From assembly GCA_002840155.1 (NCBI GenBank), contig PGZH01000003.1, positions 1 to 64,000 on the forward strand: a stretch of DNA of 64,000 nucleotides. The letters are read 5' to 3'. This document shows, in pieces, positions 1,423 to 33,703 of this stretch. Below the pieces are notes generated by a model, which made no database searches, was not told the origin of the DNA, and worked only from the letters and a program-made list of their open reading frames with translations. Origin of the DNA: Gammaproteobacteria bacterium HGW-Gammaproteobacteria-13 (GTDB lineage: Bacteria > Pseudomonadota > Gammaproteobacteria > Pseudomonadales > Pseudomonadaceae). The position numbers were made by a program, and so were the translations under genes. The first letter of the stretch is position 1, and each line of letters begins with the position of its first letter.

Positions 1423-2312
1423 TCAAAGGCCGCGCTGCCACTCCTGACGTAACCGCGCCTGTTGCGGCTGCTCGATAGCCTGCCGCACCTGCGCCAGCAA
1501 ACGCTGCTTGTCAGCACCGAGAGTGCCCTTAAGCACCAGATAATTGGAGGCATGATCACTGCGAAACACCGTATCGCGCAGCTCGAGGCCACTTAGCAAA
1601 CGCTCCACCTCGACAAATAACTGCTGCTGATTGAGCGCCTGAAAGTCAGCAAAACCCTGGCGAAACCGCGCTTCACCCTGGGGAAAACTCACCACCAGGG
1701 TCGAGAGAAATTCCGGCTGCGCCTCATTCATCAGGCGCGCCGAGTTATCCGCGTGCTGCTCACTCAGGGTTGTGCCGCCCAGGCCATTGAGGATCATTAC
1801 CGAGCGAGTGATGCCGGCCTGACCAAGCTTATCCAGCGCACTCAGGCTGGACTCGTAAGTCTCGCCTTTATTGACCCGTGCCAGTACCTCGTCATCACCC
1901 GACTCGCAGCCGACATACGCCATACGCAGGCCGGCATCGGCCAGCTCCTTGAGCTCATCTACAGACTTCTTGCGCAGGTTGCGCGGCAGACAATAACTCG
2001 ACACCCGCTCGACTTCCGGCATGTGCTCGCGAATAGCCTGCAGAATGGTCAACAGACGCCGCGTCGGCAGCACCAGGGCATCACCGTCAGCCAGAAACAC
2101 CCGCTGCACGATCATCCGCTCGCCGGTCAGGCGAATCTCTTCAAGCACCTGCGCCTCATCACGGGCGCGGAATTTCTTCTGTTCCTGAGTGTACATTCGC
2201 AGAACGTGCACTTATTCCAGGAGCAGCCATTGGTCACCGGCAGAATCAGCGAATGGGCTTCACTGGGTGGGCGGAACACCGGTTCGATATAGCTAATGGG
2301 GAAATCTTGCAT
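1423..2312 (-). pseudogene. Radical SAM protein, frameshifted by 1 bp
   Basis: The N-terminal frame carries [12 protein letters not shown], which is the 4Fe-4S cluster motif of a radical SAM enzyme. It then runs out of frame. The C-terminal part ([17 protein letters not shown] onward, about 257 residues) continues in the next frame. Joining them needs one extra base at the TT of 2196-2197 (GAATG where GAAATG is expected). The span of 890 bp plus one base gives about 296 residues. The downstream segment keeps radical-SAM landmarks such as GDALVLP and AYVGCESGDDEVL. Either the gene is broken or this is a homopolymer sequencing error. The substrate is unknown. The ATG at 2312 is preferred over a GTG at 2321. 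Confidence 0.8.
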
Positions 2313-2339
2313 GCTCTTCACTCAAGGCAAACGGCGGTC

Positions 2340-5236: not shown

Positions 5237-5313
5237 GGACTCAGCAGCGCACTCTGTATTCCAAATCCGTTTAAGAATGCTGGTAAACGGCCTGGACGTT
5301 CGCCAATCTTCAC

Positions 5314-5320
5314 CAATACT
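5314..5320 (+). promoter_or_regulatory. Candidate sigmaS -10 element for RgsA
   Basis: CAATACT is one mismatch from the CTATACT element favoured by RpoS. It lies 6-7 nt before the inferred sRNA start near 5327. No good -35 is visible, as expected of sigmaS promoters. This is inference. Confidence 0.4.
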
Positions 5321-5326
5321 GAGCAG

Positions 5327-5445
5327 TACTGGTGTGCGGCGTATCCCCCAAGCGCCCCGCCAGGCAAGGTACCGTGGACCGCGTACCTTGATTTACTCCT
5401 AATGGTCTTAACCCGGTCTCATCCCCCAGAGCCCGGGTTTTTTTT
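5327..5445 (+). ncRNA. rgsA: Probable RgsA (P16) small RNA
   Basis: The gap between the aminotransferase gene and tatD holds a structured non-coding stretch. It contains a perfect 8-bp stem (5365-5372 with 5383-5390), then a terminator stem (5411-5416 with 5433-5438) followed by eight T. In P. aeruginosa the RpoS- and GacA-linked sRNA RgsA (PA2958.1), about 120 nt long, lies beside tatD. A start six to seven nt after the CAATACT at 5314 gives about 119 nt. The call rests on position, structure and length; no sequence comparison could be run. Confidence 0.65.
5409..5445 (+). terminator. Intrinsic terminator after aminotransferase / RgsA
   Basis: The stem ACCCGG (5411-5416) pairs with CCGGGT (5433-5438) and runs straight into eight T. 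It ends the proposed sRNA and any readthrough from the aminotransferase gene. Confidence 0.75.
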
Positions 5446-9387: not shown

Positions 9388-10203
9388 TCAGCAGTCCAGT
9401 AGATCGCGGGCAATGGCCTGCAGTTTACGGGTGAGCGGGCCGACCGGCCAGTCGTGTGCGAGCAAAGCGCGAACTGGCCACACGCCATAGACGCTGTTGC
9501 ACAGCATGACTTCGTCCGCCGCCAGCAACTCGGCGTAACTGATATCGCGTACCTGACACTCAATCCCAAGCGCGGCCGCCTGGGCCAGCAACTCAGCGCG
9601 CATCACACCAGCCACCCCACAACGCGACAGGTCAGCGGTAATCAGCACGCCGCCACTGACCAGCAACAGGTTGCTGTAAACGCCCTCGATCACCCGACCG
9701 CTGGCATCCAGCATCAGGCCCTCGGCATGTTCGGCGTCCTGCCACTCGCTACGTGCCAGCACCTGCTCCAGTCGATTGAGATGCTTCAGGCCCGCCAGCA
9801 GCGGCTGCTCGGCCAAACGCGTAGCGCAGGCAAACAGGCGTACTCCTTGCTCGGCATAGGCTGCGGGATAAATCGGTTTTGCAGCCGCCTGCAGTATCAC
9901 GAGGGGCTGGGCGGCCTGGGACGGCGCATAACCACGCTGCCCGTCGCCCCGAGTGAGGATGAGTTTGGCCACCCCGTCACCCAGCTGCTGACTAAAGGCC
10001 AGCAACTGGGCACGCACGACGGCTAGATCGAAAGGAATTTTCAGCCGTACACAGCCTTCGGCCAACCGGGTCAGATGGCGTTCCAGCAGAACCGGCTGCC
10101 CGGCATTTACGGCGATGGTCTCAAATAACCCATCGCCGTAGGCCAGGCCGCGATCCTTGATGGACAGCAGCTCGGCCGGCTGACCATCAACCCAGCTCAG
10201 CAT
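9388..10203 (-). CDS. pabC: Aminodeoxychorismate lyase
   Basis: A 271-residue class-IV PLP enzyme that splits 4-amino-4-deoxychorismate to p-aminobenzoate and pyruvate for folate synthesis. Family landmarks are GLAYGDGLFETI (about 20-31), the PLP lysine in AGLKHLNRLEQVLA (about 138-151), and EGVYSNLLL near 174. ATG 10203 overlaps the fabF stop by one base (TGATG). Confidence 0.92.
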   Translation of the reverse strand: MLSWVDGQPAELLSIKDRGLAYGDGLFETIAVNAGQPVLLERHLTRLAEGCVRLKIPFDLAVVRAQLLAFSQQLGDGVAKLILTRGDGQRGYAPSQAAQPLVILQAAAKPIYPAAYAEQGVRLFACATRLAEQPLLAGLKHLNRLEQVLARSEWQDAEHAEGLMLDASGRVIEGVYSNLLLVSGGVLITADLSRCGVAGVMRAELLAQAAALGIECQVRDISYAELLAADEVMLCNSVYGVWPVRALLAHDWPVGPLTRKLQAIARDLLDC

Positions 10204-11447
10204 CAACCGGCGAACCGGCGGAACACCAGCGAGCCGTTGGTGCCACCAAAGCCAAAGGAGTTGGACAGCACTACGTCCAGTGCCATGGCCTTGGCCTGAT
10301 GCGCAACGAAGTCCAGATCACAGCCTTCGTCCGGGTTATCCAGGTTGATGGTGGGCGGCGCCACCTGATCACGCAGCGCTAGGATGCTGAAGATCGCCTC
10401 CACCGCACCGGCCGCGCCAAGCAGGTGGCCGGTCATGGATTTGGTCGAGCTGACCGCCAGCTTGTAAGCGTGCTCGCCGAATACCGACTTCACCGCCGCC
10501 ACTTCGGCTTTGTCACCGGCCGAGGTCGAGGTGCCATGGGCGTTGATGTACTGCATCTGATCAGGATTCACGCCAGCATCGCGCAGGGCATTGGTCATGC
10601 AGCGCGCAGCGCCTGCGCCATCTTCCGGTGGCGAGGTCATGTGGTAAGCATCGCCGCTCATACCAAAGCCGATCAACTCGGCATGGATGGTCGCGCCACG
10701 CGCCTTGGCGTGCTCCAATTCTTCCAGCACCAGCGCGCCAGCGCCATCGGAGAGCACGAAGCCATCGCGATCTTTGTCCCACGGACGGCTGGCCCTGGCC
10801 GGCTCGTCATTGCGGGTCGACAGCGCACGGGCAGCACCGAAGCCGCCCATACCCAGACCGCAGGCGGCCATTTCGGCGCCGCCTGCAACCATTACATCGG
10901 CCTCGCCGTACATGATGTTGCGCGCAGCCATGCCGATGCAATGCGTGCCGGTGGTACAGGCCGTGGCGATAGCGTAGTTAGGCCCCTGCAGCCCCAGATG
11001 GATCGACAGAAAGCCGGAAATCATATTGATGATCGAGCCAGGCACGAAGAACGGCGAGATGCGCCGCGGCCCTTGCTCATGCAGCGATTTGCAGTTGTTT
11101 TCGATATTGGTCAGGCCGCCGATACCGGAGCCCATGGCCACACCGATACGTTCACGGTTAGCGTCGGTGACTTCCAGGCCAGAGCTGCGCACCGCCTGAA
11201 AGCTGGCAGCGAGGCCGTACTGGATAAACAGATCGAGCTTGCGCGCCTCTTTGGCGGACAAGTATTCCTCGACGTTGAAGCCCTTTACCGCGCCACCAAA
11301 ACGCGTGGAAAAAGCGGAAAGATCCATGTGCTCAAGCAGGCCAATGCCACTGCGGCCAGCCAAAATGCCCTGCCAGCTACTCGGCACATCGTTACCCAAT
11401 GGCGACAGCATGCCCATACCGGTAACCACGACGCGTCTACGCGACAC
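10203..11447 (-). CDS. fabF: Beta-ketoacyl-ACP synthase II
   Basis: A 414-residue condensing enzyme of type II fatty-acid synthesis. The Cys-His-His triad is present: C164 in [11 protein letters not shown] near 304 in [12 protein letters not shown], and H near 341 in [10 protein letters not shown]. It starts at GTG 11447 with AAAGGAG upstream. It elongates acyl-ACP using malonyl-ACP. A terminator-like hairpin separates it from acpP, so it should be expressed below acpP. Confidence 0.95.
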
Positions 11448-11491
11448 AGCAATCTCCTTTTCTAGTTATCAACGCCTGGAAAGCGCTTAAA

Positions 11492-11529
11492 GAAAAGCCG
11501 CACGCCTGATGAAGGGAGTGCGGCTTTTC
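11492..11529 (-). terminator. Terminator/attenuator between acpP and fabF
   Basis: A perfect 12-bp stem (11492-11503 with 11518-11529) contains AAAAGCCGCAC. On the minus strand it is followed by CTTTA rather than a long T run. It lies between acpP and fabF and probably allows partial readthrough, which would fit the high acpP and lower fabF levels seen in other bacteria. Confidence 0.65.
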
Positions 11530-11554
11530 CGAGTCGGGATCCGACGATTACGTT

Positions 11555-11741
11555 TTACGCGTGAGCGGTAACGTAGTCGATCGCTTCCTGAACGGTGGTG
11601 ATCTTCTCGGCTTGTTCGTCCGGGATCTCGGTCTCGAATTCTTCCTCGAGAGCCATCACCAGCTCAACGGTGTCAAGAGAGTCGGCACCCAGGTCTTCAA
11701 CGAAGGAAGCGCTGCTTGACGCGTTCTTCGATGGTGCTCAT
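11555..11741 (-). pseudogene. acpP: Acyl carrier protein, frame broken by about 47-bp deletion
   Basis: The gene starts at ATG 11741 after a good TAGGAG site, and reads MSTIEERVK. It then jumps to codons for [14 protein letters not shown] in another frame, skipping the KIVAEQLGVKEEEV-type segment found in Pseudomonas ACP. The open stretch is 187 bp against 234 bp for a 77-residue protein, so 47 bp are missing and the frame is lost. The rest, from the DSL serine that carries phosphopantetheine to the TAHA end and TAA (11555-11557), is intact. As read, only a short peptide would be made. AcpP is essential, so a sequence or assembly error, or a second copy elsewhere, is likely. It lies between fabG and fabF as usual. 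Confidence 0.85.
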
Positions 11742-11937
11742 ACGTTGTTCTCACTCCTAATGGGACAAATCTTGGCCACTGTTCTGCGGCCAAGTGTATA
11801 GAAAGGGTTTTTAGCATTTCAAGCTGAATGCCGGGGTGCCCCACAAACACTTCAACGACCTGCCTACAAACCTGTTGCAGCTTTATAACGGATTTTAGAC
11901 AGCATCTATGACAGTTTTCTGAAGCCATCCGTCACAT

Positions 11938-12681
11938 TCAGCTCATGTACATCCCGCCGTTCACAGGGATAGTAGCGCCTGTGACGTAAGCCGCGCCATC
12001 AGAAGCGAGGAAAGCGACCACTTTTGCGATCTCTTCGGCCTGCCCCAAACGGCCCAACGGAATCTGAGTCAGCAGCGCATCACGCTGCGCTTCCGGCAAT
12101 TCACGGGTCATATCAGTGTCGATAAAGCCCGGTGCCACGGCGTTCACGGTAATCGCCCGCGAACCCACTTCACGCGCCAATGCACGACCAAAACCTTCAA
12201 GACCAGCCTTGGCAGCTGCGTAGTTGACCTGCCCAGCGTTGCCCATGGCACCCACTACCGAACCGATATTAATGATGCGCCCGTAGCGCGCCTTGGTCAT
12301 GCCGCGCAGCACCGCCTTGGTCAGACGGTACAGGCTGCTCAGGTTGGTGTTGATGACATCGAACCACTCGTCATCCTTCATCCGCAGCATCAGGTTATCG
12401 CGGGTGATGCCGGCGTTATTGACCAGAATCAACGGCTGACCAAGATGTTGCTGGATATGTTCAAGGGTGCTGGCGACCGACTCGCTGTCGCTGACATCCA
12501 GCACCAGGCCCGCCCCTTCAATGCCATTGGCTTTCAGAGTTTCCGCGATACGCTCAGCGCCCGAAGCGGACGTGGCGGTACCGATAACCACCGCACCCTG
12601 ACGCCCCAGCTCCAGGGCAATCGCCTGGCCAATGCCACGGCTCGCGCCGGTAACCAATGCAACTTTACCTTGCAGGCTCAT
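11938..12681 (-). CDS. fabG: 3-oxoacyl-ACP reductase
   Basis: A 247-residue short-chain dehydrogenase. It has the NADPH motif TGASRGIG (11-18), NNAG near 88, and the catalytic S141, Y154 and K158 (NYAAAKAG). It reduces beta-ketoacyl-ACP in fatty-acid elongation. It is 15 bp after fabD. The 196-bp stretch between it and acpP probably holds the separate acpP promoter. Confidence 0.96.
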   Translation of the reverse strand: MSLQGKVALVTGASRGIGQAIALELGRQGAVVIGTATSASGAERIAETLKANGIEGAGLVLDVSDSESVASTLEHIQQHLGQPLILVNNAGITRDNLMLRMKDDEWFDVINTNLSSLYRLTKAVLRGMTKARYGRIINIGSVVGAMGNAGQVNYAAAKAGLEGFGRALAREVGSRAITVNAVAPGFIDTDMTRELPEAQRDALLTQIPLGRLGQAEEIAKVVAFLASDGAAYVTGATIPVNGGMYMS

Positions 12682-12696
12682 AACGTTTCTCCTTAA

Positions 12697-13635
12697 TCAG
12701 ACCAGGGCCGCGTTCGCAGCAGCGAAAGCGTCCGGGGTGTCCAGGTTATGGGTATTGATGCCTTTGACGCAGCGCTTGTTCAAACCAGACAACACCTTGC
12801 CCGGACCGCACTCGACCAGATCCGTCACGCCTTGCGCAGACAGGCAGACGATCGACTCGACCCAACGCACCGGGCTGTACAGCTGAGCCAGCAGGTCACG
12901 CTTGAGCCCTTCCAGATCGGTCACTGCCGCAGCGCTGACGTTCTGTACCAAAGCGATTTGCGGAGCCTGCCAGTCAATTGCCGCTACTGCTTCGGCAAAG
13001 CGCTCAGCCGCAGGGCGCATCAGCGCGCAATGCGACGGCACGCTAACCGGCAGCGGCATCGCACGCTTGGCACCACGCGCCTTGCACGCCTCAATCGCGC
13101 GCTCGACGGCAGCCGCACCGCCGGCGATCACCACCTGGCCCGGCGCATTGAAATTCACCGCACTGACCACTTCACCCTGCGCAGCTTCGGCACAGGCAGC
13201 CAATACATCAGCATCTTCCAGGCCGAGAATCGCCGCCATGCCGCCCTGCCCGGCTGGAACCGCCTGCTGCATCAGCTGACCGCGATGCTCCACCAGCTTG
13301 ACCGCAGCAGCCAGCGACAAGCTGCCCGCCGCTACCAACGCCGAGTATTCACCCAGGCTGTGGCCAGCAACAAAAGCCGGTCGCGCGGCGCTCTCGGCAA
13401 GCCAGGCGCGCCACAACGCAACAGAGGCAGTGAGAATCGCCGGCTGGGTTTTGTCAGTTTGGTTGAGTTGCTCTTCAGGACCTTGCTGGGTCAGCGCCCA
13501 GAGGTCATAACCAAGGGCTTCGGAAGCCTCGGCGAAGGTTTCGAGAATCAGCGGTCGTTGTGCACCATGCTCGGCGAGCATGCTCAGCGACTGGGAACCC
13601 TGACCCGGAAAGACGAATGCGAGAGATGCAGACAT
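12697..13635 (-). CDS. fabD: Malonyl-CoA:ACP transacylase
   Basis: A 312-residue acyltransferase with the nucleophile S93 in GHSLGEYSAL, the FVFPGQGSQ start motif, and the histidine of VPSHCALM near 205. It loads malonate onto ACP. It is followed by fabG after 15 bp, in the conserved plsX-fabD-fabG-acpP-fabF order. Confidence 0.95.
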   Translation of the reverse strand: MSASLAFVFPGQGSQSLSMLAEHGAQRPLILETFAEASEALGYDLWALTQQGPEEQLNQTDKTQPAILTASVALWRAWLAESAARPAFVAGHSLGEYSALVAAGSLSLAAAVKLVEHRGQLMQQAVPAGQGGMAAILGLEDADVLAACAEAAQGEVVSAVNFNAPGQVVIAGGAAAVERAIEACKARGAKRAMPLPVSVPSHCALMRPAAERFAEAVAAIDWQAPQIALVQNVSAAAVTDLEGLKRDLLAQLYSPVRWVESIVCLSAQGVTDLVECGPGKVLSGLNKRCVKGINTHNLDTPDAFAAANAALV

Positions 13636-13739: not shown

Positions 13740-14750
13740 CTAAAGCAGGTGTTCACCCAGGCGACCATGCAAACGCTGCGGCAGATTTTCTTCAATCTCC
13801 CGCAATGCTCGGCGAATAGCGCTTTTAAAACCATCAGGCCCGGCCGCACCATGGCTTTTCACCACAATGCCCTGCAGCCCGACAAAACTCGCACCATTGT
13901 GCTGTGCCGGGGCCAACTCACCCTGCAAGCGCCGCAACAGCGGTAACGCCAAAGTACCCACCAGACGCGCAGCCAGGCTGGATTTGAACAGCGCCTCAAT
14001 CCGCCCGGCAATCATTGCCGCCAGGCCTTCGCTGGACTTGAGCAGGATATTGCCGACAAACCCGTCGCACACCACCACATCGGCCTCACCGCGATACAAC
14101 CCATCACCCTCGACAAAGCCGATGTAGTTCAAGCCTTCCGCCTGCTGCAGCAGACTGGCCGCCAACTTGACCTGCTGGTTGCCCTTGATGTCTTCAGTAC
14201 CCACGTTCAGCAGCGCCACGCGCGGACGCACCGTACCCAACGCCTCAGCGGTAACCGAGCCCATCACGGCAAACTGGTAAAGGTGCTCGGCACTGCAATC
14301 GACATTGGCACCCAGATCGAGCAGATGACAAAAGCCCGCCTGCGTCGGAATGGCCGTGACCATGGCCGGACGATCAATGCCGGGCAGAGTTTTCAGTACG
14401 TAGCGCGACAGCGCCATCAGCGCGCCGGTATTACCAGCACTGACGCAGGCCTGCGCCGCACCACTGCGCAGCAATTCAAGACTGATACGCATCGACGAAT
14501 CTGGCTTGCCACGCAGCGCCTGCGCTGGCCGTTCGTCCATGGTGATAATTTCGCCAGCATGCTCAACGCGCAGACGTGCACGATCAACGCCGGGATAGCG
14601 AGCAATCAGGGATTCAAGCAGAGAGGATTGGCCGACGAGGACCAGGTGCAACGAAGGGTATTCAGCCAGGCAAGAGATGCAGGCTGGAACAATGCAGTGG
14701 GGACCGAAGTCCCCACCCATTGCATCAATCGCGATGATCGGAGCGGACAA
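13740..14750 (-). CDS. plsX: Phosphate acyltransferase PlsX
   Basis: A 336-residue enzyme that turns acyl-ACP into acyl-phosphate for phospholipid synthesis. The family start [12 protein letters not shown] (6-17) is present, as are [19 protein letters not shown] near 110 and [15 protein letters not shown] near 147. The apparent start is TTG 14750 ([10 protein letters not shown]), directly after rpmF. An internal ATG at residue 11 would truncate the first strand and is less likely. Confidence 0.92.
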
Positions 14751-18929: not shown

Positions 18930-19446
18930 CGCCGCCAAAAGCGGCCTGGTTTGCGGATGATCGCCAAAACTGCCATCCCCAACCAACGCAACCCATTTGG
19001 GACGTGAGGCCGTCCGACGGGTTATTCAATGAAAGAAAAGCCTCCAAGGCTGTGAATAACTCGGAAATAAAGCCTTTAAGCCATGATGCGCAACCTGCCC
19101 CTTTGGACGGTTGCGGTAATAGTTAACCCGCTGCGGATGTTCGCGAGCGGCACCCGAGTTTCAGCGATACGTGTAGGGTGGAGATGTACAACTGTTGGTC
19201 CGCGTAGCAGCTCGCTTTACCAAGACGCCTCATCTCGTCCGCTACCAACAGCTGATTCCTCCTCCTGACTTAGTGCTTTCTGTTATCACAGCGAGCAGGA
19301 GACGTCCGTCGCGGCCCAGCACAATTGGCTGACCGCCGCTAGACACTGGAACGCTTTACGACCGTTCCTGACGCACCTGACACCGACCCCTGAAGTCGTG
19401 TGTGCCGAACGCCGCTTCCGCCAGCACCGGAAACCGACGGTACTAC
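18930..19446 (+). promoter_or_regulatory. Long structured 5' leader of rne
   Basis: This 517-nt non-coding stretch between the promoter and rne contains stems such as CTGTTGGT (19192-19199) with ACCAACAG (19244-19251) and GGAACG (19348-19353) with CGTTCC (19363-19368). In E. coli the rne leader folds into hairpins cut by RNase E itself, which sets its own level. A similar autoregulation here is inference. I see no ORF with a good ribosome-binding site in it. Confidence 0.6.
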
Positions 19447-33469: not shown

Positions 33470-33572
33470 GTCGGGGCTGATTCGAGGGAAAAAGAAACGT
33501 CCTTGTGGGGGCTTGGCGAGCAGCCTTACACTCTAAACCAGGGTAAAGTCTGCTGCGCGTCGGACCTGCTAC

Positions 33573-33670
33573 GTTGAAAACTGTCTCGGAATGCTCATTT
33601 ACATTCGTAAACTGCGCTTCCTCACCACTTTTCGCCTTGCATGCCGCTAGCTCGCAAGACTTTGAACAGG
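33573..33670. repeat. Short MITE-related repeat, about 100 bp
   Basis: A non-coding block starting GTTGAAAAC (33573-33581) and ending near TTTGAACAGG (33661-33670). It contains AATGCTCATTTACA-TT-CGTAAACT (33590-33613), which matches 23 of 24 bases of the core of the longer element at 54572-54886 (reverse strand). The loosely inverted ends suggest a deleted or short relative. It lies just upstream of the PilZ-domain gene. Confidence 0.55.
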
Positions 33671-33703
33671 TTCTTCGACCACTACTGCTGCCATGGGTTC
33701 GCC

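Follow-up and report, generated by a model that had tools for sequence, protein, structure and literature searches.

A 47-base gap in acpP of a gammaproteobacterial draft genome is probably a sequence or assembly error

Introduction

For Pseudomonas aeruginosa, passages of PMC5686131 describe acpP1 as an essential gene that could not be deleted, and report that acpP2 and acpP3 were unable to rescue an E. coli acpP mutant and that the paralogues cannot replace acpP1. By extension, the present strain presumably also requires acpP. Here we analysed a window of 64,000 nucleotides, the start of contig C8 of this strain's draft genome. Consistently with AcpP of P. aeruginosa (AcpP1, PA2966), which belongs to the type II fatty acid synthesis (FAS) system, the acpP remnant in the window scored above the cut-offs of NF002149 and TIGR00517 and lay in the gene order fabD-fabG-acpP-fabF; unlike its P. 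aeruginosa counterpart, it misses 47 bases, and a complete protein cannot be read from it.

The locus also resembles the frame errors of draft assemblies, in that one assembly splits a conserved essential gene that relatives keep whole. Such errors are usually slips of one or two bases, in contrast to the 47 bases missing from acpP, and assembly errors more commonly take other forms than a clean 47-base gap without terminal repeats. Genes whose frames are broken by draft-assembly errors are the topic of PMC12007338.

The acpP reading frame is broken after codon 9

As written, acpP (11555..11741, minus strand) consists of a 14-residue peptide read from the ATG at 11741-11739 and an out-of-frame stretch of 60 codons holding the DSL serine. 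Comparison with relatives showed that exactly 47 bases are absent after codon 9, at a join on the minus strand (11714..11715): in the alignment, 11715 is the last base of GTCAAG and 11714 the first of CAGCGC. Between the flanks and the ends of the missing stretch there is no shared base that would let the join slide, and slippage between direct repeats was rejected as the origin of the gap for this reason. Frame 0 from the ATG meets its stop after those 14 residues; the frame containing GADSLD stays open across 60 codons (11737-11558, stop 11557-11555) and is directly preceded by a TGA that overlaps the ATG. One search output printed 87 for this open frame, against 60 in two others. Ahead of the active serine in the GADSLD frame, the translation listing contained no Met, and inspection by eye found no in-frame GTG or TTG. 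The original prediction, a 47-bp internal deletion with a frameshift leaving the DSL serine part out of frame, thus held to the base, and the serine part is without a usable start before it. The complete frame of about 77 residues that marks a functional AcpP, with its N-terminal helix and DSL serine, is therefore interrupted after codon 9; the 59-residue stretch from 11734 nevertheless reached 107.6 bits against NCBIfam NF002149 (cut-off 106), and the position between fabG and fabF is the fab-cluster location of a functional AcpP.

The neighbouring fab genes are intact, as had been claimed. All four lie on the minus strand as open frames, covered nearly whole by NCBIfam models with scores above the curated cut-offs: fabF (10203..11447; TIGR03150, 649.7 bits, cut-off 493.75), fabG (11938..12681; NF004197, 422.6 bits, cut-off 332), fabD (12697..13635; TIGR00128, 359.8 bits, cut-off 260.9) and plsX (13740..14750; TIGR00182, 328.3 bits, cut-off 243.4).

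Relatives carry the missing bases

A DNA search of 57 genomes yielded 29 acpP loci (L008-L036) outside the strain's own genome, all within the genus. A full AcpP could be translated directly at 28 of them, and the remaining locus (L010), whose first codon was read as Val, was intact in a separate reading. When the strain's own copy was aligned with 28 of these 29 loci, the 47 bases were present in all eight relatives among the alignment rows listed. Scanning with a conserved acpP stretch outside the gap retrieved 29 named Pseudomonas records, every one of which had the 47 bases at the acpP locus; the protein was complete in 28, and the 29th (L057), included in the codon comparison, has a GTG start. 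The nearest relative found was among them, a Pseudomonas MAG contig (L061, genome G419). Over window positions 11000-12300 it was 93.3% identical across 1348 columns including the 47 gap columns, or 96.7% across aligned bases (1258/1301), and P. guineae LMG 24016 (L074) was 92.0% identical over the same interval. A close relative with the 47 bp in place, named at the outset as an observation that would refute the lesion, was therefore found, and it speaks for the ancestral state rather than for the strain's own reads. The join pattern occurred in 0 records of the genome_contigs collection, which may lack the strain's own record and very close ones; with this caveat, the lesion is private to one assembly and the locus is intact in close relatives, as expected of an assembly or sequencing error.

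In the codons after the gap, the window differed from the 29 named records by 1 to 8 synonymous changes, with no non-synonymous difference in 28 of them and one in L076. Against the nearest relative, the acpP remainder showed 1 synonymous and 0 non-synonymous changes. This conservation led us to reject an old pseudogene, and indicates that acpP either remains under full constraint or lost it only very recently.

Across the genus, AcpP was matched at E up to 0.001 in 397 of the 398 genomes searched, own genome included. Four stand out: the present genome; G339, with a contig break inside acpP and the 47 bases on the first piece; G096, 87% complete and with no AcpP match; and G410. In the latter, a single contig, acpP lies in two frames covering residues 1-40 and 37-76 (L082/L083, G410:C1:996875-997103), likely another sequence error in an essential gene. 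For the other 394 genomes, E-values of at most 1.9e-34 suggest a full-length match; we relied on the E-value here because coordinates were given only among the best matches listed.

The assembly offers no visible substitute

The genome comprises 4,545,609 bases in 26 contigs and is 99.95% complete. Family, protein and DNA searches of these 26 contigs found no second FAS-type acpP, and the assembly held no copy of the missing 47-base piece. PF00550 matched six times: at the broken acpP locus, twice on C19 and three times on C21. Of the five carrier domains elsewhere, the two on C19 form an aryl-polyene-type pair; of the three on C21, two lie in non-ribosomal peptide synthetase (NRPS) modules and one in an isochorismatase-fused protein. 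An intact AcpP query matched the broken locus at 90% identity and gave three weak matches (32, 23 and 35%), all of them specialised carrier domains, and the first 107 bases of a relative's acpP matched only either side of the gap, apart from seven weak matches (E at least 0.03). Of the two readings offered at the outset, draft error thus gained support, short of proof. Replacement by a copy elsewhere was not supported: the full-length acpP that was to be sought in the rest of the genome did not turn up, and the searches returned specialised carriers only.

The two C19 proteins are freestanding ACPs of 86 residues. In their cluster (L037, G000:C19:352000-371000) they adjoin an AMP-ligase that carries an ApeI-like dehydratase domain, as well as an aromatic amino acid lyase. 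They were 32 and 23% identical to AcpP over the aligned parts, and scored above the cut-offs of NF006617 and NF003757 and far below that of the FAS model NF002149. From gene content and the Pfam name ApeI, we take the cluster to be of aryl polyene type; a literature search on aryl polyene clusters gave nothing. PF00550 counts were six in G419, as in the present genome, six in G339, five in G423 and one each, their acpP, in G014, G420, G421 and G422. ACPs of the C19 type were equally present in G419, where acpP is intact, and in G339, where the 47 bases are present.

Sequence quality around the gap

Over 58,755 bases aligned with the G419 contig (95.8% identity), the alignment had 18 gaps inside aligned blocks: the 47-base acpP gap, which was the largest, four of 15 bases and thirteen of 1 to 3. 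A radical SAM gene (1423-2321, minus strand) is split into two frames near 2196-2198 and is one base shorter than the intact copies in G419, G014 and P. guineae (G420); PF04055 was found in a relative's copy. This break and the acpP gap are 9.5 kb apart and, since the window is the start of C8, both lie less than 12 kb from a contig end. The pairing leans towards local sequence trouble, though it is a single coincidence.

General low quality of the draft was only partly supported. The radical SAM gene apart, 264 kb of C8 compared with P. guineae showed no other clear frame break; the automatic ORF counts of this comparison did not flag acpP itself. There, homology was found for 165 of 369 ORFs, of which 153 were full, 7 had internal stops, 3 were partial and 2 were frameshift-like; the last two were the radical SAM gene and the region of the rne-II leader RNA. 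The internal stops fell within the first 56 residues in six of the seven, as over-long start choices give, and the seventh ORF was without Met in its first 80 residues. In the reverse comparison, 126 of 231 own ORFs had a homologous counterpart: 111 were full, 10 contained stops, 3 were frameshift-like and 2 partial. Against G419, 52 of 59 automatically chosen ORFs were full-length, 2 were without a match, and the other five were the radical SAM gene, an antisense ORF over acpP that had been chosen in its place, and three ORFs with internal stops. Substitutions in these three regions, counted by plus-frame codon position (32/10/8, 22/0/3 and 7/1/1), fell mostly on the first, as they did in the minus-strand gene fabG (41/1/4), a bias on which we take the three to be putative antisense ORFs. 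Against G014, 86 ORFs gave 56 full, 17 without match and 13 others; in a larger comparison, loss of synteny outside the window left only 77 of 257 homologous, of which 70 were full, 3 frameshift-like, 2 interrupted by a stop and 2 partial.

Explanations for the gap

With intact copies in the examined relatives and no evident substitute among the contigs, the likeliest cause is a sequence or assembly error. We consider it highly probable that the acpP gap is an error of the draft: the 47-base deletion would have arisen in consensus or assembly, the strain's own DNA presumably holds the missing bases, and the living strain would keep an ordinary intact acpP here, encoding the acyl carrier protein of type II fatty acid synthesis. 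In favour of this stand the intact relatives, the private join, the absent substitute, the conserved codons, the second break nearby and the precedent of G410; against it stand the good quality of the rest of the sequence, as judged over 264 kb of C8, the 99.95% completeness and the clean, repeat-free nature of the gap. The gap might instead be real, here or in part of the cells, with an intact acpP missing from the draft as a collapsed duplicate, in an inter-contig gap or on an unassembled element. A draft of 26 contigs is compatible with such a hidden copy, yet the near-complete genome shows no trace of the 47 bases, and we regard this as unlikely.

Still less probable is a real and recent gap with another carrier, such as an aryl-polyene-type ACP on C19, serving fatty acid synthesis. 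Two freestanding ACPs are indeed available there; against this role speak their low identity to AcpP, their fit to other family models, their dehydratase and lyase neighbours, their equal presence in genomes with acpP intact (G419) or the 47 bases present (G339) and, in passages of PMC5686131, the inability of P. aeruginosa paralogues to stand in for AcpP1. That a free-living Pseudomonas should very recently have lost its canonical acpP and now make fatty acids via a carrier from an aryl-polyene-type cluster is accordingly very doubtful; loss of the sole FAS carrier, if true, would overturn a basic rule of essentiality. Least credible of all, and in our judgement almost negligible, is that frameshifting or an unusual start lets the broken gene yield a short, working ACP: although the DSL frame is open over 60 codons, no start precedes its serine, and restoring the frame would still leave out about 16 N-terminal residues that are conserved in relatives. 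With draft error preferred, the locus as it stands is a warning: acpP is frame-broken in this draft and in one or more single-contig genomes of the genus, including G410, so that a single assembly with a broken essential gene says little about biology.

Other features of the window

Two RNA families were matched above their gathering scores, both on the plus strand: the RgsA sRNA (5242-5436, RF00628) and the rne-II leader (19167-19437, RF01756). A dispersed repeat of about 130 bases lies at 33535-33676, between a LolC/E-like permease gene and a PilZ gene, with at least 43 matches across the strain's genome when 40 of 105 candidates were scored. These 142 bases (33535-33676) fall between two main alignment blocks and are absent from G419 and G014 at that site; pieces similar to the repeat occur elsewhere in relatives.
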